DNA of 64,000 nucleotides. It comes from Heliocidaris erythrogramma (Eukaryota; Echinodermata; Echinoidea; Camarodonta; Echinometridae). Position numbers and translations under genes: made by a program. This document shows, one piece after another, positions 12,902 through 63,119 of this stretch (its first letter is position 1; each line of letters opens with the position of its first letter). The notes below the pieces were generated by a model. It ran no database searches and was not told the DNA's origin. It saw nothing but the letters and a program-made list of their open reading frames with translations. The DNA is taken from contig CM046863.1 in assembly GCA_025617745.1 (NCBI GenBank), positions 4,226,160-4,290,159 on the forward strand, written 5' to 3'.

Positions 12902-14490
12902 TAGTTTGTTTGTTTGTTTGTTTGTATTTATTTCCGTATTAAGAAAACGACATACATTTCATAAAATACAACGTATACATGAGCTTAAAAAACGGAGGAT
13001 GACCCAAATTCAGCAGTATTTACAAAATGCCGCTGTTCTTCCTTGGGGTCCCACATAGCATTATATATTAAAAATTATATCATAACACAATTATATAATA
13101 AAAAAAACAACATCAAAAAAAGAGAAACAAAATAATAAAAAAAACACAAATCAATCAAATTTGCAAACTACAGTCAAACCAAGTTACAAATTAATAAAAT
13201 GAAAATGACTATACCCGAACCCAGACAACCCCCCCCCCCCCCCCCCACTTATATGCTCATTTATAATATTGATTCAATAGCATTTTAAGGGATCTAATAG
13301 ATGTTGCACTTCGAATTTCATTGGGTAGTTGGTTATAAATGGAAATTCCCCTGTAGAAAAAAGTTCTTTTACAATGATTAGACTTTGGCTTTGGGAGATA
13401 TAAATTCTGATTAGAGCGGAGTGTGTAATTGGAAGTTCTTATTGTGATATTGTCAGACATATAATTTGGGGTGAAATTATGCAAAATCCTATAAATCATT
13501 GTACACATGTGTTTGTTATAGCGGCAATCAAGAAGGTCGCAACCCAATTTGTCGTGAATATGTTGATTTGATGTATGAGAAAAAGGATTGATTTTCATAA
13601 TGATGCGACCCGCTCTGTTTTGGATTTTTTGCAAAGGTGAAAGAAAACTTTTAGGAGCAGATTGCCACACAACATCTCCATAATCGAAATGTGGTATAAT
13701 GACCGATTTATAGATTAAATTTAAACTTGATTCATTTACAATATGTCTTAATCGACCAAGGAAACCGACAAGCTTGCTAATTTTTTGACACATGTTATTT
13801 ATATGAATATCCCATTTCAATTCCTTATCAATATGAAGTCCAAGGTATTTAGTAGTTTCAACCTTTTGTAAGATCATATTATTTACTTTCACATTAAGGG
13901 TATTATACTTTGCTAATATGTTACGCGTGCCAATGAGCATGCTATCAGTCTTCGTATAATTAATCAATAATTTGTTTTGAGAAATCCATTTGTCCAAAAC
14001 CTCCATCTCGGTATTTAGAGCAGATTCTACGACATTTGGATTTTTATGAGAAAAATAGATTACGGTGTCGTCTGCATAGAGATGAACTTGGCACAATTTA
14101 AAAATGTCAGGGAGATCGTTGATAAATATACAAAACAATAAAGGTCCTAAAATGGAACCCTGAGGTACACCGTGGGTTAACTGTTTTTCTTCCGATAAAG
14201 AATTATTGACCTTTGTTACTATTCTCCTATTAACTAAATAATTCTCAAACCACTTAAGGGTTAAACCCCTCACTCCAATGTCAAACAGTTTTTGTAGCAG
14301 CACTTTGTGATCGACAGTGTCAAAAGCCTTCTTTAAGTCGACGAATATTGCACCAGTATATTCGCCCTCATCCATGGCCATCATCCAGTCATCCAGCACT
14401 TTCACAAGCGCCGTCACAGTAGAGTGCTTAGCCCTAAACCCAGACTGAACTGATGAAAGTATATTGTTTTCTTGAAGGAAAACAATAAAA
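12902..14490 (-). mobile_element. 5-prime-truncated CR1/Jockey-like LINE, RT domain
   Basis: An open frame (complement 13257 to about 14480) encodes a non-LTR reverse transcriptase. It shows AFDTVDH (first catalytic Asp), GVPQGSILGPLLF, the catalytic YADDT box and a C-terminal thumb with WNxLP-type ending NQLPNEIRSA. The stop is the TGA at 13257-13259. The 3-prime UTR (about 12930-13256) ends in a (CAAA)n tail at 12902-12925, as is usual for CR1/L2-type elements. Homology begins around ILSSVQSGFRAKHST; upstream residues come from another repeat that contains poly-C (about 14540-14553), so the 5-prime part, including any endonuclease, is missing. The frame is intact over about 400 codons, which suggests a fairly young insertion. 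Confidence 0.9.
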
Positions 14491-14499
14491 GTGACAACA

Positions 14500-15170
14500 A
14501 AACTCAAGTCAAGATCCAGGGGCAGATCCAAGGGGAGCCCCCCCCCCCCCCCCTTACAACATCCTGGATCCACCCCTGAGATCATATTGCACAAAGGAAT
14601 ACATACACAGATTTCTAATGTATAAATGTGACGGTGCGTAATATATTTGTTAGAGGGAAATCCAACCGTAATAACAAGTTGCTTCAAATGAAAGAAAGAG
14701 AAAAAAAATCAGAGAAGCAGATTGGTGAAATCGGACGAAATCGGACAAGCCATAAGAAAGTTATGAATTTTTGAAAGTTGTAATCACTGTTGTGGGAATT
14801 TCAAATTGGCCGAATAGGTAATGTCACTGCGATGTACTTGATCTTTGAAGGTATAGAGGTTTGCATGGTGATACTGATAGCGTTGAAAAGGTTTACGGTT
14901 CACCATGTGGTTAGTCCATGAAAAGGACTCTTGAGTAAGAAGAAGAAAGTGGAAAAAAGTTGAGAGGAGAAGAAATGGAAAGGCGAGAGAGAAATTCAGA
15001 GATTGTAGAAGTAATCTTTCTTGAAAGTGTGAAGTCTTGAAAAGGACTGGAAACAAGATGAGAAGGCCGATAGTGGAGAAGACTCGACGTTTCGGACAGG
15101 TTGACTGTCCGTCATCAGGAGAGCCGTCACACTCCATCCTTGCCCCCTTCAAGTTCAGTTATCTTCTTCT
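14500..15170. other. Non-coding, repeat fragments
   Basis: It holds a poly-C-bearing repeat (14510-14580) that extends the LINE frame artificially, then a fragment related to the foldback at 541-1069 (about 14680-14810). No gene is supported. Confidence 0.4.
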
Positions 15171-16131: not shown

Positions 16132-19100
16132 GTAAGGCAATGAATTGTGATTAAAATGTATTTTAGAGAGCTTTTTGAGGTCGAGCTTTTTTTTTGGCAC
16201 AGCCACAGCGTCAGTAGGTAGAGTCGACACTGCACTAAGCTGATCGACATAGTCATAGTCATACAGTCAAACAGTGACCTGTCTCAGTCAGTGTCTGTCA
16301 TTGTCAACACGGCTAGTTGGATCTTCATGATATAGATCAACTTGGTTTCAACACACACGAGTGAGAATGGGGGCAAAAAGTAGATTAAGAATAATGGTCG
16401 TGGATAATCATGATAAAACATGGTTGGGAGTGCGTTGGTCATGTTGTTGTGCGATTTGGCAACACTCACCTGGCTGAACATGCGAGGCGCAAGCCGAGTG
16501 TGTTTGACACCACGATAAAACCTGCGTGTTGCCAGATCGCACTAACATGACTAACGCACGAACTCACAACCATGACATGTATTAATAGTTTTATAAAACG
16601 GGTTGGCAATATGATTATGAAGTTTATAAAACTGGTACGAACCCAGAAATGCCAAGAGTCGCACAGTCCTGGATGACATCACAGAAGCGCAGCCAACAAA
16701 AGTCATGCGCGTTCAGTGCATGCATGTAATCCCTGCGCTAAAGTAAAATGACAAACTACGCAATTTCATTGCGTTTTAAGTTTGCACGCACCAGAGGTAC
16801 GCGCAGCTCATCCATGCTTTAGCATGTTTAGAACCTTTTTGTTGTATGTTATTACTTTTTTTGCAAGGTTAGTGGTGTTGTTATTTGACTAATCAGGATG
16901 GCTACATTCTTGAACCCGTTATATAATGGTGAATAACAAGCTTAACGTTAGTACTAGGCCTACTTAGTAGTAGTCCTACCGTAGTTCCATAGCAAGAAAG
17001 TGGCAGAAAAATCACTCAGCTTGTCATGCTTGCGCTTGTTCAATTGTTCATTTGTTGATTGCAGTCGCTCAAGAAGAAGAGCCGCCCAAGAGGAGTAGAA
17101 CTTAGTTAACGCCACGGTTAGCTGAGAAGAATGTCATCATCATCTGGTCGAGGATGAAGGAGTTAGCCTGTAATTCCCGGTCTCTTAATCTGAAATTGTC
17201 ACATAACTAGTTGTTTGTGCGGTTATAATTATTTGTCATTCAATGTTTCAAAATTCCTTTGTTCTTGCTCAAATTTGGATGACATTTTTGACACAATTAC
17301 TCATTGGAATATCATTATCAGGAATAATACCAAAAAAAATAGACATTAGAAGAATATAAAATAATTTCCTGTTCAATTTCAAGTCAAATTTCAGGTGTGC
17401 AGACGTTGGACTCCCAATCATACCCCTCACTAAAATTGAAGAAAAATATATGTAACTGGTGTAGAAATATGTTCCATAGAGGGTTAGTGGGGGTACATAT
17501 TCTCTTTCCAATCAACCCAGTTAAAATAAAAATGTCACAAACAATAGCATCCAGGGAATCAATTACTAACTAACTATTCATCTCTCTTCCATTATTGTTG
17601 CCAGGATGTTAATAGTTATTGAATTTTAAAGGTAATGACCAAATATGATGTAGTCACAAACACAGTTAGGTCACACAGCCATATACTCTACAGGGCCCTG
17701 TTTCATTTATAAACTTGTTATCGATGACAAAATTAAATTACAATAACTGTTATAAGCTACTGAAATGGTTTCATTTGATTGGCTGTGAGCAAATTTGTCA
17801 TAAGTATTGTTATTGATAAGTTTTATTAAACAAGGCCCAGATGTAGTGTGTCTGGAGTCTCTGGACAGTTGCCAGCTGGACATGCCACACAAGTTAAGCT
17901 CAAGTGTGTTGTTGACAAATTAATTGAACATCTAAATCAATATCATATATTGTCTCTAGACGTATAAAATGATGATTTTCAAGTTAGCTTCTTGGATTTG
18001 ATTAGTGATTACGATGATAAATTTGCAACTTTCTTTCTTTGATTTGGTCAGTGATTACGATGATACGGACAGCGCTAGTGATGGAGATGATTTCACAGAC
18101 CAAGACATGAGTGACTCGTCTCATTCATCATCATTCTTCTCTAGGAAAGAGATTAGTAGAGCAAGATGGACTAAAGATGAGGTTTGACCATGTCTTCTCT
18201 CTTTTTACTTCTCCTTTTACTACTTCTTCTTTTTCTCCTTCTTCTCCTCCTTCTCCTTCTTCTTCTTCTCCTTCTTTTCTTCTTCTCCTTCTTTTTCTTC
18301 TTATCCTTCTTCTTCTTCTTCTTCTTTCTTCTTCTTCTCCTTCTTCTTCTTCTTCTTCTTCTTTCTTCTCCTTCTCCTTTTTATTCTTCTCCTTCTTTTT
18401 CTTCTTCTTTTTCTTCTCCTTTTTCTTCTTCTCTTTCTTCTTCTCCTTCTTTTTCTTCTTCTCCTACTTTTTCTTCTTCTCCATCTCTTTCTTCTTCTTC
18501 TTCTTCTTCTTTCTTCTCCTTTTTCTTCTTCTCCTTCTCTTTCTTTTTATCCTTCTTTCTTCTCCTTCTTCTCCTTCTTTTTCTTCTTCTTCTTCTCCTT
18601 CTTCTCCTCCTTCTTTTTTTTCTTTTTGTCCTTCTTTTTCTTCTTCTCCTTCTCTGTCTTCTTTTTTTTTTCTTCTTCTTCTTCTTTTTCTCCTATCTTT
18701 TGATTAAATCTTTTTAAAAGGTTATTTTAATGTTTTTCTTGTATCCTTAATTACCCAAACTGTCATTACTTCCACAAATGTTTCAAAATATTACCTATTA
18801 CCTTTTAATCATATAATGGCTTTCTCTGCTTGTCAAATAACAAGCTCTTGTCAGACGATCTAATCAATTCTGTCCAATCCTCGTTCCCTAGGATGACATG
18901 TTAAGACAAGCCATTGAAGTCCATGGGACAGTAGACTGGAAACTCATTGCTAGCTTCTTCCCAAACCGATCAGAGCTCCAATGCTTCCATCGCTGGCAGA
19001 AGGTTCTTAATCCTGACCTGGTAAAAGGTCCCTGGACTACAGAGGTAAGGTCAAAGGTCACTAGACAGGTCAAAACAGAGAACAGTATGGTGGTAGTATG

Positions 19101-22100
19101 AAAAATTGTTTTATCTTTATTATAGTGAAACAATATTAGTTTCATGATTGAAAGGTAATGTTTTCACAGTGTTACATGCAGAAGATACCAAATTCCAGTG
19201 AAAGGTTGCAATTCATTTAGACATTTAAAGCCATTTACTAAAGTATAGATTAAAGGATTTTCAGAATATACCGCACCATCTAGTGTATATCCTTCCAGTT
19301 TTATTGGGTCTTTCATTTTCAGACGAAACATAAAATAAACAATATCATGAACCTATTGTCTTCTATTATCCTTTTTTTTTGTTTATAGGCCTATTTCAGT
19401 CAAATATGACTATTTAAGCCGAATGAGAATAGAATGAGAGTAGTCACTAGTCAGTTGGTTAAATATATGGTACCATTCTGTCATACTTTAATGTCTATAA
19501 GGCAAGTCTATAAGTATAATTACACTAAACCTGTCTATAAAGACGACTCAAGGGAGACAAGAAAAGCCGTCTCTATGAGCAGGTGGTCTTTATGTACAGG
19601 TTCCTTAAGTACGCATTACGCATAGACAGGTGGTCTTTCTAAATAGGCGGTCACTAAAGCAGGTTTGACTGTATCTGAAAAGAATATTATGAAAGGTTGT
19701 TCAATGCGTGTACCTTACACCCATTTTCAAAAGCCTGGATTTTGCTGCATGAATACTATATACAGTGTTATATCAGGGTTAAAAACTAGAATACAGAAGG
19801 GTTGGACTGTGAAAATCACCTTGTTATAATGAGAGTTTGTTGTAACAGTGTTCTTTATAACAAGATTTTACTGTAGTGAGCATCATACATGTATAGGCCC
19901 GAATTCACACAGGTGGTAATAGATTTGTACCATGGTGTTTGCAAATTTTGTGGTATAAGTGCGCTTGATTTCGTGTGTACGCTTAGAAAGATCCAATAAT
20001 GAACTCGCGTGATAAGCAAAGTGCGCAAATTTCACGCTAGTTGCCATGGTTAGACCATGGTTTATATAATTAGTTGAAATAAACTGCGTAAATTTACATA
20101 AACCATGGTCTAAACCATGACAACTAGCATAAAATTTGCGCACTTTGCTACCAAAGCACGTTCATTATTGGATCTTTCTAAGTGAACGCGCGAAATAAAG
20201 CGCACTTATACCACAAAATCTGCATAAACCATGGTACAAATCTATTACCACTTTTGTGAATTTGGGCCATAATGTATTGAATTGGAGTCTGAAGAAAAAA
20301 AATTGTTAGAGGATTTTAACCTGGCATATGAAATTCAGATTGCAAATATCCTGTATACATTCTGCGATGAGACTGGTAATCATTTCTCAATGAATCAGGA
20401 GGACTTGTTAATCAGGCAGTTAGTGGTAGAGCTAGGCAACAAACAGTGGTCAGTTATCAGTCAGCATATACCAGGTAGAATGGGAAAACAGTGTCGGGAA
20501 AGGTAAGATTTTAATAAGTTGAATATCGTTTGTTGAGATCCATACTTGTTTTATATATCAGTTTCTGTTATAAACGCTTTTTGTTCTCAGCAGGCGATAT
20601 GTTCAATTGTTCTTATGTGTTCATCGGTTTTATTGGGTTCTATTTTTGTTTTGTTATTGTTCTGTTCTACAACATTTCTATTTTGTTGTTGTTGAACTAA
20701 TCTAAAGCAGAAACTTTTGCTACTTTAACTTTCAGAAAGTGTTAGTGGCTAGAAGTTTATAAGAGCGGCAGAAGTTCAGTATCGTAATTCAGTTATTACA
20801 CAGCATGAAAACATTCTGAATTTAAGAGACCACTTTCAAAATTTCTGAAAGTTAAAAGCTTCTGTTTCTCAGTAGATTCCATTATAATTCAGTTATTATG
20901 ATTGTTTTCTGCATGTTATGGTTGTTTTTTTCCTTTCAAACATTTGTTGTAACCTGACACAGGAGGATGAGAGAGTCGTTGAGTTGGTACGTGAGCATGG
21001 CCCTAAGAGGTGGTCTCTCATCAGCAAATATCTATTAGGTCGCACAGGCAAGCAGTGCAGAGAGAGGTATGGTGTCTTCAAAGATATGATGACTGAAGCC
21101 TCATTCATTTATTAGCTAAAGGGCGGATCACATTTGTCCGATAATGATAAGATTTTCAATTAAAGGTACAAGCTACGATATGGTGGGTACATGCGAGTAT
21201 GCTTGTGTCTGTTAATAGCAGGGCAGTTCTAGGGTATACCTTTAATGGAAAATGTTATCGTTATTGGACAAATGTGAGCAGCCCTTTAGTATAGTGCACT
21301 TGATATTTCTGTGTCTGATAACACACAGGTAAAATAGGCCTTAATTTGACAACGTATGAGGTTTTGACGATACCTATGTAACGCTGGTATGAGAACTTTA
21401 TTACACATGGAAGATGAAATCATCTGATGAATTTATGCAATGAATACAGTATTGCCCAGCCAGAATCATTCCTGTTTAACTTGCTACTCTTTCAAAGCTT
21501 AGCTTAAAGTGCATTTCTTTTTTTACCACCATTACATGGACATCACATTTATATAACATTACATACTATTTTGGTCTGCCATATTGATTCACTATGAAGC
21601 TAGAGTACTTCTCAACATAAGTGGCCATGCTTTTTACGCTGAACTCAATGTTAGCAAACATTGTTATGGTTGATAGGAGACATAGTTCCTCACTTCTTGT
21701 ATGTCACAAAATCGCCTGTGGAATGACCCATGAACAAGCCAACAAGGCTGTATGATCAACTGTTTGATAAATCACAGATATAATTAGTAAATTCCAAGTA
21801 CCTGGGAAGCGTTTCATCAAGCGTTTTGTCAGTGATTTTAATGGCAAATTTGCTCTCGGCCAATCAGAGGCAAGGATTTCAGTAGCTTATAACAGTTGTC
21901 GGTAAAGAACACTGATGAAACGCTCCCCTGAATAAACAAAAGAATTAGAATGTAAAGAACCAAATAGAATGGAAGAAAAAATTATTTATAGTGAAACAGT
22001 TAGTTGCGTGTACTTCTTTTGAAACATGGTTAACTTGGTTGGTGTTTCACTGGTAATTATTTGTTTTCAATTTGATTTGGTTTTGTTGTTTTGTTGTATT

Positions 22101-23456
22101 ATGATTTTAATCAGATTGTTTGTATGCATTATTTGATTTTAAACTGTTGGTTAAAATTGTTTATTAAATTCTTTTTAATTAAATTAGTTGAATGAAATGA
22201 TTTTCTGTTCATATTTTTTAAGTTGGGAGAAAGGAAGGGCAAAAAATAAATAAGATGTGAATTAACCTTCATAGAAAATCAATGTACTGTACCACAGTCT
22301 TTTATTTTGCTTTGAACCATTTAATTATTTATTTTTATTTCTTTGAATAACATGACAGTCATTAATATTTGGGATTGATATTTTCCTCTTCTAGATGGCA
22401 CAATCATCTAAACCCTGATATTAAGAAGTCAGCATGGACCAAAGAAGAGGACTGTATTATATACGAAGCTCATAAGAAACTAGGCAACAGATGGGCTGAG
22501 ATTGCTAAACTTCTACCCGGAAGGTATGAATTCATCAACATTCACATATGCCATTGTTTACCATTTTAGGGTTTGTGTTTTTCTTCAAGGAAATGGCAAG
22601 TGGGGTTGAAAAAAAAAATTAAAAAATAATGTCTTGTTAGTACCCAGGGTAGCCTCATCAGTACTAAATACTGTTCTCCCTGAGGGCCCTGCATATTATT
22701 ACCCCGGATTTAGCATGGCAAACGTGTAGCGCTCAGTGCATTCAAGGAATAAAATCCTACCAGGTACCCACTTACTACACCTGGGTCGAGTGTGGCAAAT
22801 GTAGATTACTTTATTGCGAAAACACGTTAGTGCCATGGCAGGGAATTGAACCCCGTACATTGTGATCTGCAGTCAGGTGACTTATCCATTAGACCACAGC
22901 ACCTCTACAAAAAATGTAGCTGTGCGCAACAAAGGTCCTTCATGTACTCACTTATCTGTGTTATTAGATACACAAATATGAAGTGCACTCCGCTTGAAAA
23001 AAACCCCTGCAGTTTACTGTCGTATATATGTGAACCCACCTTGACAATGCCCACCTCTCTACATCAAGGTCACCTTAGAATAAATGTTTTAGAACCTCTC
23101 TGCAGTGGATACATTTTCTATTTCACTTGAGGGACTTTTTTAGACAATATGATATAATAATAAAAATAATAATGATGATGATAATAATAATATATCTTGT
23201 TTATCCAGGGTAGCCTCATCAGTATTATATACTGTTCTCACTGTGGGCCCTGCAATGTTTATTATTACCCTGGCTTTAGCCGAGCGACCATGATAAGGCG
23301 CTCAAGCATTCAAGGAATTTCTTCCTACCAGGTACCCATTTACATCACCTGGGTGGAGAGTGGCAAATGTAGATTAATGTCTTGCCAAAGGAAAATATAT
23401 ATCTGTTAATGTAATTTGAACCTTATTAATGTTTAAAGGTTATAGTTTAGATGTTT

Positions 23457-23490
<34 letters not shown>

Positions 23491-24065
23491 CTTTGACCAT
23501 TTTCTACAGGACGGATAATGCCATCAAGAACCATTGGAACTCTACAATGAAGAGAAAAGTAGAGACCTGCAACCCGTACACTCCCAGCAAAATGTATAAG
23601 ACTCCACATTACACACAGACTAGTGATAACCAGGTAAGGTCACTGCCTTTAATCTCATGGTGCCCTTGCAGTTCCGAAGGCGGTTCTTGGACCCAAAAAT
23701 TCTGATATCGTATCTAATAGTTTGGGGTTCCATACTGGTATATAATAAAAGTATCAGCTTCAAATTGAAAGTAGCTGATTAAAGCAGTTTACCGTTTATT
23801 TTTCTCCAGTTATTTTATTAAATTACAATTCTACACTTTGGGAGCAATCGCCATTTTACAGGTTCATGCATGCTAATCAATGTTTCATCAAACCACAATT
23901 ATGTTTGAGATTCAAAGACTTGTCTTTTTTCTTACTATAAGAAATGAGTTCATGGTTTTTGATGTTTGATATGATAGAACAATGTTTTTGTATGAAAATG
24001 AATGATGTCAAAACAAAAAAAAAAATCACAATTGTTAACCCTGTCTTTTAATTTGTTAGTTCCCA

Positions 24066-36100: not shown

Positions 36101-38938
36101 ATCTTCTTTTTTTTTTAAATAACACATATACATTATTTACAATCAATAAAAGTAGTGATTACAGTACAACAACAACAACAATAATAACAATAATAACAAA
36201 TATCAAGTGAGCTTAAAATAGTAAAATGAATGATAATGATCTTCATGAACATTCTAAAATTGATTTTCAAGTTGGTATTCTGCAATTATGTTTTCTTATA
36301 ATACCCGTCCAAATTTTCTGCGACCGGTTATATTCCTTAATTCTTTTGGCAAATTATTCCATATAACAGGTCCTTAATATGAAATCGATTGTTTCCCCAG
36401 ATTGGTATTACTGATTGAAAAATTCAAATCAGATTTCTCTATGTTTCTGGTATGATAGTTTTACCAGAAAAGCCGTTTCCTGCTGTGTACTTTTCCTGCT
36501 GACGTCATCGAATAGTTCATTTTTCCCGCCTCACCAGAGGGAAAAGGTGAACTATCGATGACATCAGCGGGAAAAAATTAACTATTCGTTTTTCCTGTCA
36601 TTGATTTCGTAAAAATGTTTTCTTCTGCATATATCTGGTAAAATGATGGCCACATCGATAGTTTTGTTCTTTTTTTTTTTTCATGGATAACTTTCTTCAA
36701 GTAGCTTTAAAAGCTTTTAAGAGAACAACATAGGTCAGGACTATCTGCCCAGCCAGACAAATTTATTTTTACCTTTAAATACCCTGCTCTTGTTTTGGAA
36801 AAACTAATACTTGGTTATCTAAATTTCTCAATTTGAATGAAATCTTATCTGCCCATTTTTCTCTCATAAATTTTATTTTCAATCATTATTCTTTGTTCCA
36901 GACTGAATCAATATCACCTATGAAGAGAGTACGGAAGTCATTGTCCAGCTGCATGCAGAGAGAAAAGGAGAATATGACTGGAGAAGAGACTAGGCCAGAA
37001 GAATTAGATGTAAGTTACTTTTGATGAGAAGTATATCAATAAATATTAATTTTGTAATGTGATAATACCAGAAGTGGCATGAATTTCAGAGAGGGGGGGG
37101 GGTTGTTTTATTTTTTACATAATTCCATAATTTATCAGCATTTTGAATATGACATCAAACAGCCCCTGCAATCAAAACGGGCTTAAAATTGAAAAAAAAA
37201 AGACTACTGAAATCTCTCTGAGGCCCGTATTCTGAACTCCGGTTTAACTTAAACCGCGGGCTAAGGGTGGTTTAAACTCATTCTAAAACTGCCCTTTGAA
37301 CCATAGTTTTGGAAAATTACATTCTGAAATCCAGTCTAGTATGGCTTAACTTTGTACAGCAATTTAGACTGGACTTACGGTTTTAGTCAGTTTTGATTAA
37401 AGCTCTGGTTTAACTTAGACTGGAGTTTAAGTTAAACCGGAGTTCAGAATACGGGCCTGAGTGTTTAAATGTTGCCGGTTAGGTTTTAAATAAGGAAAAT
37501 GTTATATTTCTGGTAATTTGTGATTAGTTTTCTTTCATGAAAGTAGGAAAATACTTTTCTTTTTCTTTGTTCTCTGTGAACAGGAGAGTATTCTTGCTTC
37601 AAGCCTCTTGATGTCACCCCCTCTAGGCAGTAAGGGTCAGGGGTCAATACTAGGTGAGATGAGTATGAGGGCTCTCAACGAAGCTTTCAACATGCCTTCC
37701 ACCCCGTCCCCCGTTGCCCCCGCAAGGTCAAAGGTCAAAGTTGAGCCAACCAACAGACCTGTATTGCAAGCCAAGGTGAGTAGCTGATAAAGAACATTTA
37801 AATTTGTACAATAAGGAACTACTTTATTTATATACATTCTCAATACAGATATTTATTCCTACTAACAGCCAGAAAGAACATTTCTTTTTTCTTTTTTTGT
37901 TTTGTTTACATTTCTTTTTTTTGTTCATTATTACATATTTCCCGTAGAGCATATTTCACTCCTTTTTTTTGTTTTACAGGGGCTCTGCAAATAGATTATT
38001 TGTGAATTTATACAATAAACGAGAACGAGGCTAACACCTGTAATTTCAGAAATTGACCTCTGTGACGTTGACATTTGACCTACGTACCACTAAATCTAAT
38101 CAGATTCAAATCAGATTCTTCCTATGGTGATACATACTAGCACCAAGTTTGAAGTTCATAACTCAAATGGTTCTCGAGTTATCGCGAGAACGAGGCTAAC
38201 ACCTGAAATTTCAGAAATTGGCCTCTGTCACCTTGACCTTTGACCTACGTATCCCAAAATCTAATCAGATCATCTTCCTATGGTGATACATACTAGCACC
38301 AAGTTTGAAGTTCATAACTCGTGTGGTTCTTTAGTTATCGCTAGAACAAGAGAGCGGGACGGACGGACGGACGGACGGACAACCCGAAAACATAATGCCT
38401 TCGGTGGGCGGAGGCATAAAAAATAAAAAATTAAAGATTTTTTGGAAGTTATGAATAATTTGGGCTTGAATGTATGTAAACATAATTATATAGTCAAATG
38501 ATAACACATGTTATTTCTTTTTGTAGATGTCTTTTAACTATACAGTGGGACCATTTTATAAAGAACACTTATAACAAACTCTTATTAGAAGAAGGTAATT
38601 ACATGTACAAGGTACATTGTAATGCAGGCATTTCAGGCAAAGAAAAGGTGCAACTGGCTTTCTAGGATAAATTCTCAGCTCATCAGGACTTTTCTTTGAC
38701 AGAAAGGCACTTGATACCATAATGTTGTGTTGTTTTTTTTCCTTTTATTTTTGTGTTGATAATTACATTTCTATCATTAACCGGTATTTTGTTCTTTCTA
38801 TTTTCACCCTTCCAGGGATCTCGAGACAAGGAATGGTGGCAGATCACCCTAGGACAAACAAAGGACCAGCAGTTCATGAGCGGTCAAGCACGACGGATGG
38901 TCCTACGGGATCACGTACCAAGGTCACTCGTCCTCTAA
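16109..38938 (+). CDS. MYB: B-Myb-like R1R2R3 Myb transcription factor
   Basis: Exons: 16109-16131, 18052-18181, 18892-19044, 20399-20502 OR 20963-21066, 22395-22523, 23510-23633, 26313-26382, 26823-26985, 29948-30093, 31126-31256, 32301-32453, 33115-33227, 34905-35019, 35612-35722, 36902-37009, 37584-37775, 38816-38938. All phases agree; the product is 695 residues, near vertebrate B-Myb. An acidic N-terminus leads to R1 (Trp 47/67/86), R2 (99/119/138) and R3 (151/170/189). Then come [12 protein letters not shown], a Ser/Thr-Pro-rich region with [15 protein letters not shown] and [12 protein letters not shown], the MKRVRKSL basic patch, and a C-terminus like the B-Myb segment that binds LIN9-LIN52 of MuvB. 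The nuclear product should activate G2/M genes and be a Cdk target (family knowledge). The start is the ATG giving MNSRR, the only one in phase with exon 2. R2 is encoded by one of two alternative exons. Confidence 0.95.
16385..16930. repeat. Dispersed repeat in Myb intron 1, second copy at 41205-41667
   Basis: The two copies are in the same orientation. They share TGGTTGGGAGT, AACCTGCGTGTTGCCAGATC, GACATCACAGAAGCGCAGCC, TTTCATTGCGTTTTAAGTTT and GGATGGCTACATTCTTGAAC. The left part is itself an inverted repeat (the TGGTTGGGAGT and ACTCACAACCATG ends). Confidence 0.75.
17691..17840. mobile_element. MITE of the GCTACTGAAAT-core family, variant ends
   Basis: The ends CAGGGCCCTGTTTCAT and AAACAAGGCCCAG are roughly inverted. 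The core holds CTGTTATAAGCTACTGAAAT and GATTGGCTGTGAGCAAATTT, shared with 21802-21930, 56295-56435 and the element interrupted by the Harbinger. Confidence 0.6.
17991..18016 (+). promoter_or_regulatory. Duplicated upstream 3-prime splice site (decoy)
   Basis: GGATTTGATTAG followed by TGATTACGATGATA, 46 nt upstream of the real acceptor (GATTTGGTCAG followed by TGATTACGATGATA). The copy is in the same phase. Using it would read GDYDD and then eight more residues to a TGA before any Myb repeat. Confidence 0.6.
18184..18715. repeat. 530-bp polypyrimidine (CTT/CTC) tract
   Basis: Nearly uninterrupted pyrimidine on the transcribed-RNA-like strand, starting within 10 nt of the exon 2 donor (GTTTGA at 18182). 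The long poly-Ser, poly-Phe and poly-Leu frames across it are artefacts. Confidence 0.9.
19896..20273. mobile_element. Long palindromic MITE in the intron before exon 4a
   Basis: About 375 bp fold back on themselves. GGCCCGAATTCACACAGGTG at the left matches CACTTTTGTGAATTTGGGCC at the right. AAAGATCCAATAATGAAC and the ACCATGG segments are mirrored too, and the centre is near 20085. It ends some 125 bp before the alternative exon at 20399. Its GGCCCGAATTCAC ends relate it to the elements at 31306, 52711 and 54273. Confidence 0.8.
20399..20502 (+). CDS. MYB: Alternative Myb R2 exon, version a
   Basis: A 104-nt exon with phase-0 acceptor (AATCAG) and strong donor (AAAGGTAAGA). It encodes residues 103-136 plus two bases of Arg137. 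It has the second R2 Trp (119), the turn PGR and GKQCRER, the start of the DNA-reading helix. It matches version b at 20 of 35 residues, with differences mostly in helices 1 and 2. Its NKQW resembles vertebrate B-Myb at that spot (from memory). The polypyrimidine tract is weak, suggesting regulated use. It lacks any stop or splice defect. Confidence 0.85.
20706..20880. promoter_or_regulatory. Inverted repeat between the two R2 exons
   Basis: TTAACTTTCAGAAA (20725-20738) and its perfect complement TTTCTGAAAGTTAA (20842-20855) form the core of an imperfect stem. It extends outward (GCAGAAAC with GTTTCT) and inward (AGTGG with CCACT). The downstream arm ends about 80-90 nt before the acceptor of exon version b. 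It could be a splicing-control RNA structure or a decayed foldback element. Confidence 0.5.
20963..21066 (+). CDS. MYB: Alternative Myb R2 exon, version b (canonical)
   Basis: A 104-nt exon with the same phases as version a. Its acceptor has a good polypyrimidine tract (TTTTTTTCCTTTC about 25 nt upstream, then GACACAG) and the donor is AGAGGTATGG. It encodes the same part of R2, with GPKRWS typical of vertebrate A-Myb and c-Myb and the invariant GKQCRER. It is probably the default exon. Confidence 0.92.
21119..21291. mobile_element. MITE, TIR AAAGGGCGGATCACATTTGT
   Basis: It has inverted ends of about 33 bp (the right end is complementary, ACAAATGTGAGCAGCCCTTT), total 173 bp. It begins about 50 bp after the donor of R2 exon b. 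Confidence 0.8.
21802..21930. mobile_element. MITE, GCGTTTCATCAAGC family
   Basis: The ends CTGGGAAGCGTTTCATCA and TGATGAAACGCTCCCCTG are inverted. The core has CTCTCGGCCAATCAGAGGCA and TTTCAGTAGCTTATAACAG. It is an uninterrupted relative of the MITE that hosts the Harbinger. Confidence 0.8.
22630..22910 (-). mobile_element. tRNA-derived SINE
   Basis: On the minus strand the tRNA-like head (GTGCTGTGGTCTAATGGATA, then GGGGTTCAATTCCC) is followed by a body with GGTACCTGGTAGGA and a tail with TGAGGCTACCCTGGGTA. It shares head and body with the SINE at 58027-58303 but has a different tail. Confidence 0.75.
23190..23402 (-). mobile_element. SINE fragment lacking the tRNA head
   Basis: It has the same body and tail as the SINE at 22630-22910 (ACCCAGGTGATGTAAATGGG, CTACCCTGG). 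It ends at the internal TGGCAAGACATTAATC segment, so the tRNA-derived promoter is gone. Confidence 0.65.
24069..24140. repeat. Poly-G tract (about 37) followed by poly-C
   Basis: A long G homopolymer, a short spacer and a C homopolymer, able to pair with each other. The exact lengths may be assembly-limited. Confidence 0.85.
24400..24972 (+). mobile_element. CR1/L2-like LINE 3-prime fragment
   Basis: The frame ending at the TAG at 24875-24877 encodes the C-terminal RT end: [44 protein letters not shown]. Then come GCGCCTTGAGCAC, GGCGCTATATAAAT and (ATT)n. The 5-prime part is absent. The tail matches that of the SINE at 58027-58303. It lies in a Myb intron. Confidence 0.85.
25270..26120. repeat. 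Element with inverted GGGGGTCAAxTTGACCCCC ends
   Basis: The left end (AACTGGGATATTTGACCCCC, then GGGTCATTTTGACCCCCC) and right end (GGGGGTCAAATTGACCCCCC, then CAGTTAAC) are inverted. Inside, TTTCTTATGTATTCCTTTGT occurs twice (about 25557 and 25718). No coding sequence. Confidence 0.5.
27000..27297. mobile_element. Palindromic MITE, GGCCCxTATTxTxAACTCC ends
   Basis: The ends are inverted (GTTTAACTAAAACCATGGTC against GACCATGGTTTAAGTTAAAC). The interior matches the element at 27963-28283 in opposite orientation (CTCATGCTTTAA, ACTGTTAAAGATTTGTGTC). Confidence 0.8.
27500..27835 (+). mobile_element. LINE 3-prime fragment
   Basis: RT C-terminal coding [19 protein letters not shown] runs to a TAG at 27688-27690, then a GCGCTATATAAAAATG and ATTATTATT tail. 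It lies between two palindromic MITEs in a Myb intron. Confidence 0.75.
27963..28283. mobile_element. Palindromic MITE, second copy
   Basis: The ends TTCTGAACTCCAGTTTAACT and GTTAAACCGGAGTTCTGAAT are inverted. It is the same family as 27000-27297, interior reversed, with a third relative at 37220-37458. Confidence 0.8.
28290..28935. other. Myb intron sequence, nothing recognised
   Basis: Non-coding. It includes an uncharacterised segment with repeated ACAAATGACCTT strings (28430-28560). Confidence 0.3.
28937..29155. mobile_element. MITE, TACTGTAAAAGTGGAAA ends
   Basis: TACTGTAAAAGTGGAAAATT at the left is inverted against AATATTCCACGTTTACAGTA at the right. The interior is rich in TTTTTATTTTCGC and GCGCGAAA. 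Confidence 0.75.
29188..29367. mobile_element. Tigger/pogo-like MITE
   Basis: Its ends AGTGGAACCTCATTATAA and GTTATAACGAGGTTCCACTG are inverted, of the CAGTGGAACCTC type seen in pogo/Tigger elements. The 180-bp element is non-coding. Family assignment is from the end sequence. Confidence 0.6.
29440..29930 (+). mobile_element. LINE fragment with inverted 5-prime half
   Basis: 29630-29780 (+) encodes [20 protein letters not shown] and runs to TAA, then a CGCCATATAAATG and ATT tail. Directly upstream, on the minus strand (about 29445-29600), lies the preceding part of the same RT region ([17 protein letters not shown]). Thus the 5-prime portion is inverted relative to the 3-prime portion, as produced by twin priming. 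Confidence 0.7.
30688..31062. repeat. Dispersed repeat, second copy at 43436-43826
   Basis: Both copies contain TTTTGTTCTTCAAATTGGCA, TACATGGTTAGA, TTCCTGGCATCAAAC and GAGCCAAACCACAAAATGTG in the same order and orientation. Non-coding. Confidence 0.75.
31306..31852. mobile_element. Nested MITEs in a Myb intron
   Basis: The outer element has the ends TCCGAATTCACAAAAGAGGC and TTAATGAATTCGGGA. Inside it, 31447-31801 is a second element whose ends GATTTGGTAGCTTTGTAGAG and CTCCACAAAGTTACCGAATC are inverted. The inner one has a relative at 54896-55308. Confidence 0.7.
32760..32908 (+). mobile_element. LINE 3-prime tail with (GAATT)n
   Basis: GTGGAAATAAATTTGAATTG followed by GAATT tandem units. 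It resembles the ends at 7290 and 59120. No coding part is left. Confidence 0.4.
33846..34084. mobile_element. MITE, TIR AATAGACCGCTTC
   Basis: The ends AATAGACCGCTTCTGTA and ACCGAAGCGGTCTATT are inverted. Same family as 1880-2117, with the interior sharing TATTCCATGAACC and AAGAACAACCTTT. Confidence 0.8.
34479..34684. mobile_element. hAT-like MITE with 8-bp target duplication
   Basis: The 206-bp element has ends AGGGCTGCCAA and TTGGCAGCTCT and is flanked on both sides by the direct repeat GTACTTCC (34471-34478 and 34685-34692). Eight-bp duplications are characteristic of hAT elements. It contains several TCTCCCTGATTTC repeats. Confidence 0.8.
35922..36480 (-). mobile_element. LINE 3-prime relic
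   Basis: On the minus strand a decayed RT C-terminus with [15 protein letters not shown] (near 36305-36370) is followed by 3-prime sequence ending in a (TTCA)n tail at 35922-35945. The frame has stops. It lies in a Myb intron. Confidence 0.6.
37220..37458. mobile_element. Palindromic MITE, GGCCCGTATTCTGAACTCCG ends
   Basis: The ends are near-perfect inverted repeats (CGGTTTAACTTAAACC against GTTAAACCGGAGTTCAGAAT). It is the third member of the family at 27000 and 27963. Confidence 0.85.
38016..38420. repeat. Two-unit 165-bp tandem repeat with (GGAC)n end
   Basis: The unit starting GAACGAGGCTAACACCTG occurs twice (about 38020 and 38186). It shares ATGGTGATACATACTAGCAC and AAGTTTGAAGTTCATAACTC, then comes GGACGGACGGAC (38357-38382). 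A related GTCC-repeat element lies at about 45597-45900. It lies in the last Myb intron. Confidence 0.75.
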
Positions 38939-55962: not shown

Positions 55963-58900
55963 TTATACAGGCACTTCTGCTGTTGATAGAGGCTCCATTC
56001 CCTTACGTCTCCTACAAGCTGCTGCCACGAGAGGCGCTGTGATAAGAAGTCCACAGATGACGTCGATAAATCCTATCACGCAGAAAGATATGTTGTACGA
56101 TTTCGTCCTGTCGAAGATCCCACCTGAATATACAAATGAGAACAAAAGGGAAGGATAGCATTACAAGTATTATTTTTTTCAGCGATGCGATATGGTTTTT
56201 CATGACATTCTTTCAGAAAACAAAATACATAATTTTACCCCTCAGATTCCGTACGTTAAATCTTCGTCAAAACGAAATTTGTTTTGAGATGGACCTGGGG
56301 AGCGTTTCATCAAGCTTTTGTCAGTGATTTTTACTGACAAATTTGCTCTCAGCCAATCAGATGCAAGGATTTCAGTAGCTTATAACAGCTGTCGGTAAAA
56401 ATCACTGACAAAACGCTTGATGAAATGCTCCCCTGAATGTAAAACAGACTGAGTGAAACCATTGACTTGCATATTTGTCAAACAGCGATCACAAAGCTCT
56501 TCTCATTTATATTATGTGCTGACCACCAGTAATTAAAAAAATTCAATCGGCAAATCAGCAATTTTATAGCCTGTCGGCAAATTGCAAGAAATGACTTTGA
56601 GTGTTTTTGCATAAAAAGGAAATCTGGTCCGATATACCAAAACGGTCTGGCGACGGCTCTTTTTAGATTCGTAGCAAATGACACTATTCACCACAGAGAA
56701 AAACTCCATCCCTGTTTGTAACTCACCTAAGAGGGCACCACTGATAGGAAATCCAATACCAAGAGACACTAGTAGCATCGATACAGCTGCCTTGTACCGC
56801 TCTGTCGAGACTGCACCATTGACGATAATGAACTGCAGTGACGTCTTCGCTCCAAGAGAAAATCCGTTAACGAAAGACAGAAGGGACAAAAACCAGAACG
56901 TTGTGGCGCCATAGTTGACGAAAAATGCGACAGAAGAAAACATGTTCATTATAAGATAGGAAACCTCGTTGGGAATAAACTTCTTTGCTGTGAAGAATCC
57001 TATGCAGAACCGTCCGAATATATTGCCGACGCCTCCGGCTGTTGCGACGTAGACGGACATCTGCGAGTCAAAACCTTTTGCTTCTGCATTAGGAATGACG
57101 AAAAGTACCCAGCCATCGTAGGAGACGCCAAAGAGAATGGTCGCGAAGCAGATGCCGAAGAATACAGGGTAATCTTTGAAGAGATAGAGGTCGAATAACT
57201 CTGCAACACTATGACACCATCTGCCAAAACAAGTCCGATTCGTGTTGTCTTCGGGACAATCCTCAGCGGCAACTGCTTCTTTAACGGCTACGCTGTTAGA
57301 CGTGGTGTTGTACGATGCTACAAGTTCGTGATGGTGTTTGTTGTCAGAGGTTTCCACTTCAGACGCGAAGCTCGCAAAGCCATTTGGGGTTGCGTCCTCA
57401 GAGTTACTAATGCGGTGTATAATAACTTTGCTATCTGATTTACAGTTGGTGTTGGTGTTTTCCGAGTGTCTAAGATGACCGTTGCCCGTATGCCTTTGAT
57501 GTGGTATCAAGTCCTCTGTCTCACCTTGTGAATCAGCATCGAGAGAGGTCGCACCATTTTCTTCTTCACTCCCGTCTGTCCCATCTGGTGCCGACGAACA
57601 ATGACCGCTGTGCTCCCCTTCGACTTCTCCCCGCGTATCATCAAGAGGCACTTCTCCGGTTACCACTTCCTTCGCCTTTGGTACTGGCTCCAAGAGGGCG
57701 CCACTCACCAGAGTGTTCAAGTTAATGGCTCCTAGGAGCATCAAGGCACCCCTCCAGCCGTAGTTGGTGACAAAGACCTCGAATAGAAGTGGCAAGATCA
57801 TGAGACCGATCCCCCCTCCGGTCAGGTTGATACTGGAAGCAATTTCAAACAGGTCTGGGAAGTAGTCTACGGGACTGGAATTAGCTGGTAGGACTACCGT
57901 GCTGAAACCGATTCCTAAACCAAATAAAAAAAAAATCAGTTATTTCCTTTTCATCACCTATTGAAGGAAACAAAGAAATGTTATTTCCAGAAGAAGAAAA
58001 CAAATAGTCCACTTTACTACTCTTAATAGTAATAATAATATTGGGTATTTATATAGCGCTCGTATCCACCAATGGTGCTCAAGGCGCTCCAATATTACCC
58101 TGGCTTTAGCCGAGCTGCCCTATAAGGCGCTCAAAGCATTTCAAGGAATAAATTCCTACCAGGTACCCATTTACTACACCTGGGTGGAGAGTGGCAAATG
58201 TAGATTAATGTCTTGCCAAAGGACATTAGTGCCGCGGCGGGACTCGAACCGCGAACCATGAGATCCACAGTCCGGTGACGTATCCACTAAACCACGACGC
58301 CTCCACTCTTGAGTGAAATATTCCATCCATTGCGATTGTGCAGAGTTTTTTTTGGTTGTTTATACGGAGAGGTTTTTTAAGCAAGCATGCTAGATATCAC
58401 ACAAATATAAAAACATTGATAACACAAATAAAACCCACAAGAATGAACAAACATAAAATTTGCGCAGCATTGACAAGTTTTATTGAATTAACATGAAAAA
58501 GGAGATGTCGTTTCAACAGAATTAAAAACAAAACAAACGTTGTCTGGTTATTTCATGAAGTGTTTCCTGTTTCATTATCATTACGAGACTTTCCACCAAA
58601 AGATCTTACCTAAACCGAAAGCGGATACTAACTAATCCTGTTGGCAGGTGGCATATTACGTAAAGGTAATAACATGGTTAATTATTCCTTAACATCTTAT
58701 TCAAATATGTGTTACATTATCCAATGGCAAATTATGCCCCCCCCCCCCCCCCCCCCAAGCTTTACAAAGTCCTGGATCCGCTCCTTTGTTTCATTGAGGT
58801 TTTGCTTCTCTCTTCATCATTCCGTTATTTTGTTGTTGTTTCTTCTGAGGATATAAACATGCGAATATGGTTCTGATATAAATTTCCTGCTGTTGTCAAG

Positions 58901-61900: not shown

Positions 61901-62919
61901 TAGATTAACGTCTTGCCAAAGGACGCTAGTGCTACGGTGGGATTCGAACCCCGGACCTCATGGATCACAGTCCGAGGACTTATCCACTGAGCAACAACAC
62001 CTCTACCTCGGCATGAGGTGAAACCTGATCATAGAGAGAGAGAGAGGGAGTGAGTGTGTGAGAGAGAGAGAGAGAGAGAGAGATTAGAGCTAGATGAAAG
62101 ACCGAGGGAGGAGTGAAAATAAGGTGGCGCGACAGAGAGAGGGAGAGGGAGAGGGGTAAAACAATGAGAGTTCGAGGGAGAGAAAGAAACACGAGACGTA
62201 GAGAGAAAGAGGGAGAGGGAGTGAAATGAAGAGAGATTGATGGAGATGCATGCAGAGACTAGAATGAGAGATAGATGGAAAGATTGTGCACGGTAGCTTA
62301 GCTAAATGCAATGGCGCATAAAGATAATAAAGAAATTTGCTAGTTTTGTTTGTGCTTCTAAAATTAAAACCTGGCATATCTGAATATAAACGTTTTCATA
62401 TATATTATTTTGCTTAAAAGTATTTAAAGAGGTAAATACTAATTCTACATCCTAATATTTTGGTTATGACTCTATTGAAATAAAATTTTGTTTTTTAATA
62501 ATTTTGTAAAATGCGTCTTTCCCGCGTTTTTACGCACCACGACCTTTTGCTATTTTAATGGCAAAACGTCGTGATGCGTAAAAACAATAGCTTAAGCAGA
62601 GATATATAATACTAAAAAGGTGAATGTGTGTTATAGAGGGAAAGATGGAGACAGAAAAGGTGAGAAAGAGAGAGGGGGGAGATATATATATAGAGAGAGA
62701 GAGAGGAATGAGATACTTACATAACCAGTACGTCGCTCCATGTGCCATGCCAATGATGGTCCCTATGTAAGCAGTCGATGTACCAAAGTCTGACGTCATA
62801 TCATTTAGAATGACCCCGAATGACCTCACAGTTCCGGTCTCCAAGAAGGAGACGAAGAACACACCCGTTAGGATGAACCATCGTTTGACTCCCCGAGTCA
62901 GCCGGTGACGAACCTCCAT
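55963..62919 (-). CDS. Monocarboxylate-transporter-like MFS protein (SLC16 type)
   Basis: Coding exons in transcript order: 62919-62721, 59527-59387, 57914-56727, 56123-55963 (complement). All GT-AG introns and phases agree; the product is 562 residues. The start is ATGGAGGTT; the ATG lies 21 codons into the open frame. The protein should have 12 membrane helices: six in the N-terminal half, including RSFGVILNDM, GMAHGATYWLS and the typical helix-5 motif YGWRGALMLLGA; a long acidic, Ser/His-rich cytoplasmic loop (about 190-360); then six more with GNIFGRFCIGFF and a last helix pair beginning IFDRTKSYNISF. MCTs move lactate, pyruvate, amino-acid derivatives or other small solutes across the plasma membrane, some with a proton. 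The usual first-helix DGGWGW signature is absent, so the substrate cannot be inferred and an orphan MCT-like carrier is likely. Confidence 0.88.
56295..56435. mobile_element. MITE, intact GCGTTTCATCAAGC family member
   Basis: CTGGGGAGCGTTTCATCAAG and CTTGATGAAATGCTCCCCTG are inverted. The core has CTCTCAGCCAATCAGATGCA and CAGTAGCTTATAACAGCTGT. It lies in the last intron of the transporter gene and serves as an empty-site reference for the Harbinger insertion. Confidence 0.85.
58027..58303 (-). mobile_element. Full-length tRNA-derived SINE
   Basis: On the minus strand: head GGCGTCGTGGTTTAGTGGAT (A box), GGTTCGAGTCCCGC (B box), then TGGCAAGACATTAATCTAC, GGTACCTGGTAGGAA, CTTGAGCACCATTGGTGGAT, GCGCTATATAAATACCC and an (ATT)n tail. 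It lies in a transporter intron. The tail matches the LINE at 24400-24972. Confidence 0.85.
58735..58757. repeat. Poly-C tract
   Basis: About 19 C followed by AAGC, inside a transporter intron. Part of a dispersed repeat with TCCTGGATCCGCTCC, like that near 14560. Confidence 0.7.
59145..59357 (-). mobile_element. SINE, different head
   Basis: On the minus strand, GGGCATGTTGGCTCAGTTGC and GAACCCCGGCC form a tRNA-like head. The body and tail have GCAGGGCCCGCTGGAAGAGC and TGGCTACCCTGGGTTAATAA, the second tail type. It adjoins transporter exon 2. Confidence 0.55.
59566..59787. mobile_element. MITE of the TAGACCGCTTC family
   Basis: The ends GGCCGGTTCTGTAATGTATT and ATACATTACCGATGCGGTCT are inverted. 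The interior TGCTTGGAATCCAGTTTGCA is shared with 1880-2117. Confidence 0.7.
60068..60122. repeat. Two poly-G tracts separated by TGCGGA
   Basis: Two G homopolymers of over 20 each with the same flank GTGCGGA, a local duplication in transporter intron 1. The lengths may be unreliable in assembly. Confidence 0.8.
60320..61660. other. Transporter intron 1, nothing recognised
   Basis: It is less AT-biased than its surroundings but holds no exon, repeat boundary or RNA gene that I can recognise. Confidence 0.35.
61665..62008 (-). mobile_element. tRNA-derived SINE, third tail type
   Basis: On the minus strand, GGTGTTGTTGCTCAGTGGAT and GGGGTTCGAATCCCACC form the head. TAATCTACATGTTGCCACTC and ACCCAGGTGTTACTAAT are in the body, and CTGTAAAGTGCTTAGAGGCA and GGCGCTATATAAAAGCGG lead to the tail. 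Confidence 0.75.
62032..62225. repeat. (AG)n-rich tract
   Basis: AGAGAG runs on the + strand, so a pyrimidine-rich stretch in the transporter transcript. A second such tract is at 62640-62705, close to the exon 1 donor (62720). Confidence 0.85.
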
Positions 62920-63119
62920 TATGACGTCACAATTAGTCAATAGTCACTATAGACACGTCAAAGAATGCTGAAAGAACAAGGGTAGAAAAAATATTAATTA
63001 CAGCGCATATTAAAGGACAATTAACCCCACGTGATATTCTAGATGCACCTATTGTCTGCTACGTCTTTCCATGGAGGCTGCCATTTTGTGCATGACACGG
63101 ATCATTAGGTACCATATGC

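Follow-up and report, generated by a model that had tools for sequence, protein, structure and literature searches.

The window analysed here, a stretch of 64,000 nucleotides from the echinoderm Heliocidaris erythrogramma, carries on its forward strand an animal-type Myb gene with three Myb repeats and a Cmyb_C domain. An exon upstream of the R1 core (18045..18181, with a provisional start and ending in RWTKDE) has an open frame with the start of R1 and a weak GT donor after 18181, and it is followed by a constitutive exon for the remaining R1 and the beginning of R2 (18892..19044, VKGPWTTE). Two alternative exons of R2 come next, which we call a (20399..20502, c-Myb residues 99-133) and b (20963..21066, canonical-looking), each of 104 nt and running from phase 0 to phase 2. 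Constitutive exons then provide the end of R2 (WHNHLNP) with most of R3 (22395..22523), and the end of R3 and beyond (23510..23633); these two and the exon at 18892 are delimited by AG/GT borders and frame. PF00249 of Pfam recognises three stretches whichever exon is used (168.9 bits with b, 167.3 bits with a), the closest solved structure of the exon-b version is c-Myb 1h88 (E 2.8e-76), and R1 was also aligned to 1h88.

Further downstream on the same strand, the Cmyb_C domain of the gene (PF09316, 34882..35025) was found with 49.1 bits in the peptide and 46.8 bits in the genome search, where it was the only Cmyb_C match. A candidate for the MuvB-binding motif of the C-terminal end (38834..38902, forward strand) came from tblastn of the window with a human B-Myb peptide, and its match of 43% over 23 residues (E 0.003) is weak alone; Pfam had no hit in the joined C-terminal peptide. 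A CT-rich tract of about 500 nt (18184-18700) lies in the intron inside R1, right after the weak donor GAG/GTTTGA, whose score is -1.55. Elsewhere in the window, on the minus strand, a 476-codon frame (13257-14687) resembles by eye a LINE-type reverse transcriptase, and two frames (56533-57801 and 62530-62940) resemble, also by eye, an MFS/monocarboxylate-type membrane transporter.

The genome searched comprises 1.064 Gb in 26 contigs, the window being situated in contig C11. Its mitochondrial COX1, on contig C24, makes sense only when AAA is translated as Asn (table 9); tables 5, 24 and 33, which were also tried, put Lys where Asn is conserved. A tRNA-Arg comes after COX1, with a tRNA-Ser on the minus strand and a tRNA-His further on, an order found in echinoderms, and this supports an echinoderm source, probably a sea urchin. 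A 102-residue Myb query gave six places from 15 candidates, five of which are exons of the Myb gene of the window, and the sixth is a 27-bit match in contig C17. Judged by appearance, the frame of this sixth match may be that of SNAPC4. As far as these searches see, the locus appears to be the sole animal-type Myb in the 1.06-Gb genome; a single animal-type Myb is described for many invertebrates (PMC7225089). An animal Myb gene was also sought in viral contigs (1 locus) and in genome contigs (11 loci, bacterial records), and judging by record titles none was present. Among these records, a 531-kb scaffold titled Endozoicomonas ascidiicola has an R2R3-like Myb match (L006:8001-8303, 53% over residues 3-102), and two Legionella records (L011, L012) have weaker Myb matches of 30%, which suggests that eukaryote-like Myb genes are possible in host-associated bacteria.

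The first-pass annotation described a and b as mutually exclusive exons, and its account of their geometry held in all respects: both exons are 104 nt long, lie 460 nt apart, have AG/GT borders, pass from phase 0 to phase 2 and stand at the coordinates claimed. They encode the same stretch of R2: 61/104 nucleotides agree, and of the 34 whole codons 19 specify the same residue, or 20 of 35 once the shared split Arg is included. The reading-frame argument was equally borne out when spliced frames were checked, as a and b together run into a stop inside b and omission of both leads to a TGA seven codons into the exon at 22395, while a alone or b alone stays open over the joined stretch of 170 residues, so that one exon at a time is needed for a full-length frame. 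Neighbouring homologues of like length and same phase, with an open frame for one exon only, are what mutually exclusive exons would look like in sequence.

With the a version as a tblastn query against the window, exon b was found with E 1.9e-10 and there was no third copy of the exon. At the genome level no third copy or retrocopy of a was seen either: exon a alone found itself, b, and one match of 38% that contains a stop (E 0.5). An origin of a from another repeat of the same protein was rejected, as a shares 11/34 residues with the gene's own R1 and 10/34 with its own R3, against 19/34 with b, so that a arose by copying of the R2 exon. Both a and b have Glu109 and Ser119, which are absent from c-Myb and B-Myb, as would be expected had the duplication taken place in this lineage, though these are two residues only.

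The swap involves 15 residues, at positions 101-105, 108, 110, 112, 114, 117, 120-123 and 126 in c-Myb numbering, and none within the part of the recognition helix that a and b encode (127-133), which is identical in both. It had been proposed that the exchange alters helices 1 and 2 and leaves the DNA-reading Lys, Cys and Glu as they are, and in our comparison the 15 changes precede helix 3, Lys128 and Glu132 being the same in both versions; they are among the R2 DNA-contact positions given in PMC4613820. Because these two residues are the same in a and b, the further proposal of two DNA-binding flavours, if understood as different base specificity, becomes doubtful.

According to PMC3240579, V103, I118, C130 and R133 line the R2 cavity, and the V103L replacement lowers flexibility, DNA binding and trans-activation. 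At this position the Val of b is replaced by Ile in a, a milder change than V to L that may affect function, and the changes in a also cover R114 and the outer face of helix 1. The v-Myb protein of AMV carries L106H and V117D (PMC7910556); Leu106 is kept in both a and b, and at residue 117 a has Val and both b and B-Myb have Leu. Counting K and R minus D and E, version a carries a net charge of +2 and version b one of +3. It would be logical to expect from these positions that the swap tunes the affinity of R2 or its partner contacts rather than introducing new base reading.

A resemblance of a to B-Myb, suggested from its KQW, did not hold up, as it comes to one shared residue: a agrees with c-Myb R2 at 19/34 positions and with B-Myb R2 at 18/34, and its R2 reaches 76.8 bits with B-Myb and, among the c-Myb chains listed, 74.3, 75.5 and 75.5 bits, which places it at much the same distance from the two. 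For b the c-Myb likeness survives as a weak lean, 23/34 against 21/34 for B-Myb, and b is in any case closer than a to both proteins (23 and 21 against 19 and 18 of 34).

The protein encoded by a carries marks of constraint. In neutral simulations b was taken as the ancestor and allowed to drift without selection until 15 residues differed or a set identity was reached. Of the 20,000 drifts to 15 replacements, none came up to exon a in BLOSUM score against c-Myb and B-Myb, for which a has 212 and the drifts a mean of 110.6, and 7,082 of the 20,000 stayed open. Where c-Myb, B-Myb and b all carry the same residue, exon a differs at 3/19 columns, as against new residues at 9/15 of the other columns (P 0.012), and no more than 3 of those 19 were changed in 2/20,000 drifts to 15 replacements. 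The fraction of drifts that reach the score of a depends on identity: 0/20,000 at 61/104, 0/5000 at 70, 1/5000 at 80, 17/5000 at 85/104 and 207/5000 at 90/104 (fraction 0.0414).

Substitution patterns between a and b were also considered. By the Nei-Gojobori method dN is 0.37 and pS 0.88, the synonymous sites being saturated beyond correction. Differences at codon positions 1, 2 and 3 amount to 15/35, 9/35 and 19/34; the third position differs from the second with P 0.015, and from the first and second together only with P 0.055. On these comparisons exon a is unlike a drifted relic, and Myb-like constraint at the protein level has acted on both a and b over the greater part of their history.

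The splice signals of a, as read from the sequence, are mixed, with a donor stronger than that of b and a pyrimidine-poor acceptor. By a scoring matrix its donor has 7.08 against 3.57 for b. Over the 17 bases before the AG both a and b have 10/17 pyrimidines, compared with 13-15 at four further acceptors of this gene; from -40 to -4 the counts are 19/37 for a and 23-32 for the five other acceptors, b among them with 25/37. Moreover, 22 of 107 other nearby YAG sites equal the acceptor of a over 17 bases, which we counted against its use.

Two repeats flank the exon pair, both on the forward strand. The intron before a contains a palindromic, MITE-like copy of a mobile element (19896..20268, 373 nt) with 156-nt arms that are 87% complementary and a predicted hairpin of -242.7 kcal/mol, and it ends 130 nt upstream of a; its family gave at least 84 match rows in the genome from 40 scored of 256 candidates, at 82-92% identity. 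A second palindromic repeat (21110..21295), with 60-nt arms 85% complementary, begins 43 nt after b in the following intron; it has 1118 candidates in the genome, and the 40 of them that were scored gave at least 93 match rows. The 460-nt intron between a and b (20503..20962) is single copy in the genome; within it lie a perfect inverted repeat of 15 nt (20724-20738 / 20842-20856) and, at 20910, a TGCATG.

Several ways in which splicing of the pair might be controlled were tried and rejected. Three introns were scanned for 8 splice-factor motifs; the a-b intron has two occurrences of GCATG (P 0.03) and one of TGCATG (P 0.095), neither of which holds over 24 tests, and no firm regulator emerges. 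Competing base pairing between introns was discarded, as there were local hairpins only, two of them from the repeats, and the long-range matches were short and weak. Rfam had no match within the window. Steric exclusion by intron length was rejected too, as 460 nt would leave space for splicing of a to b. Exclusivity would be enforced instead because 104 is not a multiple of three, and not by intron size.

We propose that the gene probably possesses swappable R2 exons, one per message, which would give a canonical Myb and an isoform with the same core site and altered affinity, stability or partners. Each mature mRNA would use either a or b, and messages with both exons or with neither would meet an early stop and be removed by nonsense-mediated decay. 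Version b would supply the canonical R2. The core site bound by isoform a would stay as it is, the difference lying in how tightly it binds, how stable it is or which partners it contacts, as in an attenuated or redirected Myb, and its unchanged C-terminal part would still be able to join the usual complexes. More tentatively, and with the balance of our judgement somewhat against it, we may suggest that an echinoderm with a single Myb switches by tissue or stage between the canonical protein and one with a remodelled R2 (V103 to Ile and the helix 1-2 face), a stand-in within one gene for the vertebrate Myb paralogues and a natural counterpart of V103L.

Exon a might on the other hand be a recently disabled duplicate, now unspliced and with a frame not yet eroded, which we find unlikely. 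Its pyrimidine-poor acceptor, the insertion of a palindromic repeat 130 nt upstream and its greater divergence from c-Myb and B-Myb (19 and 18 against 23 and 21 of 34) would all agree with such a loss. The simulations are compatible with a recent loss as well, since drift of up to about 14/104 bases, to 90/104 identity, remained unseen in 207/5000 runs. Against this reading, exon a has lost neither its frame nor either splice dinucleotide, and its intact donor surpasses that of b.

Another idea is that a is mainly a regulatory "poison" exon, whose combination with b lowers Myb output and whose own peptide is unimportant. The stop that arises inside b when both exons are joined speaks for that idea, yet a poison exon needs no protein constraint, and a keeps the Myb core (0/20,000 drifts) and retains the exact phase and length for replacing b, so we hold it to be quite improbable. 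Least credible to us, with very little probability, is that a belongs to a shorter transcript from the preceding intron, encoding a Myb that lacks R1 and some of R2. The frame is indeed open from 20273 with an in-frame ATG just upstream of a, but R2 would then be without the start of its first tryptophan helix, and an AG border with matching phase is that of an internal exon. The context of this ATG is poor. The swap of R2 exons, one per message, is the reading that we retain as probable.

Few transcription factors have been studied for as long as Myb, whose DNA-binding domain is highly conserved. If our proposal is true, exchanging the first two thirds of R2 while sparing the recognition helix would separate base reading from flexibility, affinity and partners in one organism, and would show how an animal with one Myb could gain several Myb activities without gene duplication. 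In the full-text literature, judged by titles and openings of abstracts and with most subscription papers outside it, we found no report of an animal Myb with mutually exclusive exons.

Related arrangements exist in other regulators. The closest is exons 18/18b of FOXP1 (16/16b in mouse), which are, like the proposed Myb pair, a frame-keeping and mutually exclusive swap of part of a DNA-binding domain (PMC11701043). That swap, according to the same paper, changes the preferred motif of the forkhead domain, as shown in cells, whereas the Myb pair, as predicted from sequence, leaves the base-reading residues unchanged and sits in an unrelated fold. In Arabidopsis, FLM/MAF1 is another transcription factor with a mutually exclusive exon pair, thought to switch protein-interaction motifs (PMC3266260), but there the pair lies in the I-domain of a plant MADS protein, a different family from Myb, and not in the domain that reads DNA. 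The alternative exons of vertebrate MYB lie after the DNA-binding domain and are not known to include an R2 swap. Vertebrate MYB too has several splice forms, the human gene having 15 normal and 6 alternative exons (PMC4276956). Vertebrates also have several Myb versions in one animal, A-, B- and c-Myb, but these are separate genes, and here there is one locus. The mechanism is already known in other regulators; the surprise would be the gene and the place, and not the principle.
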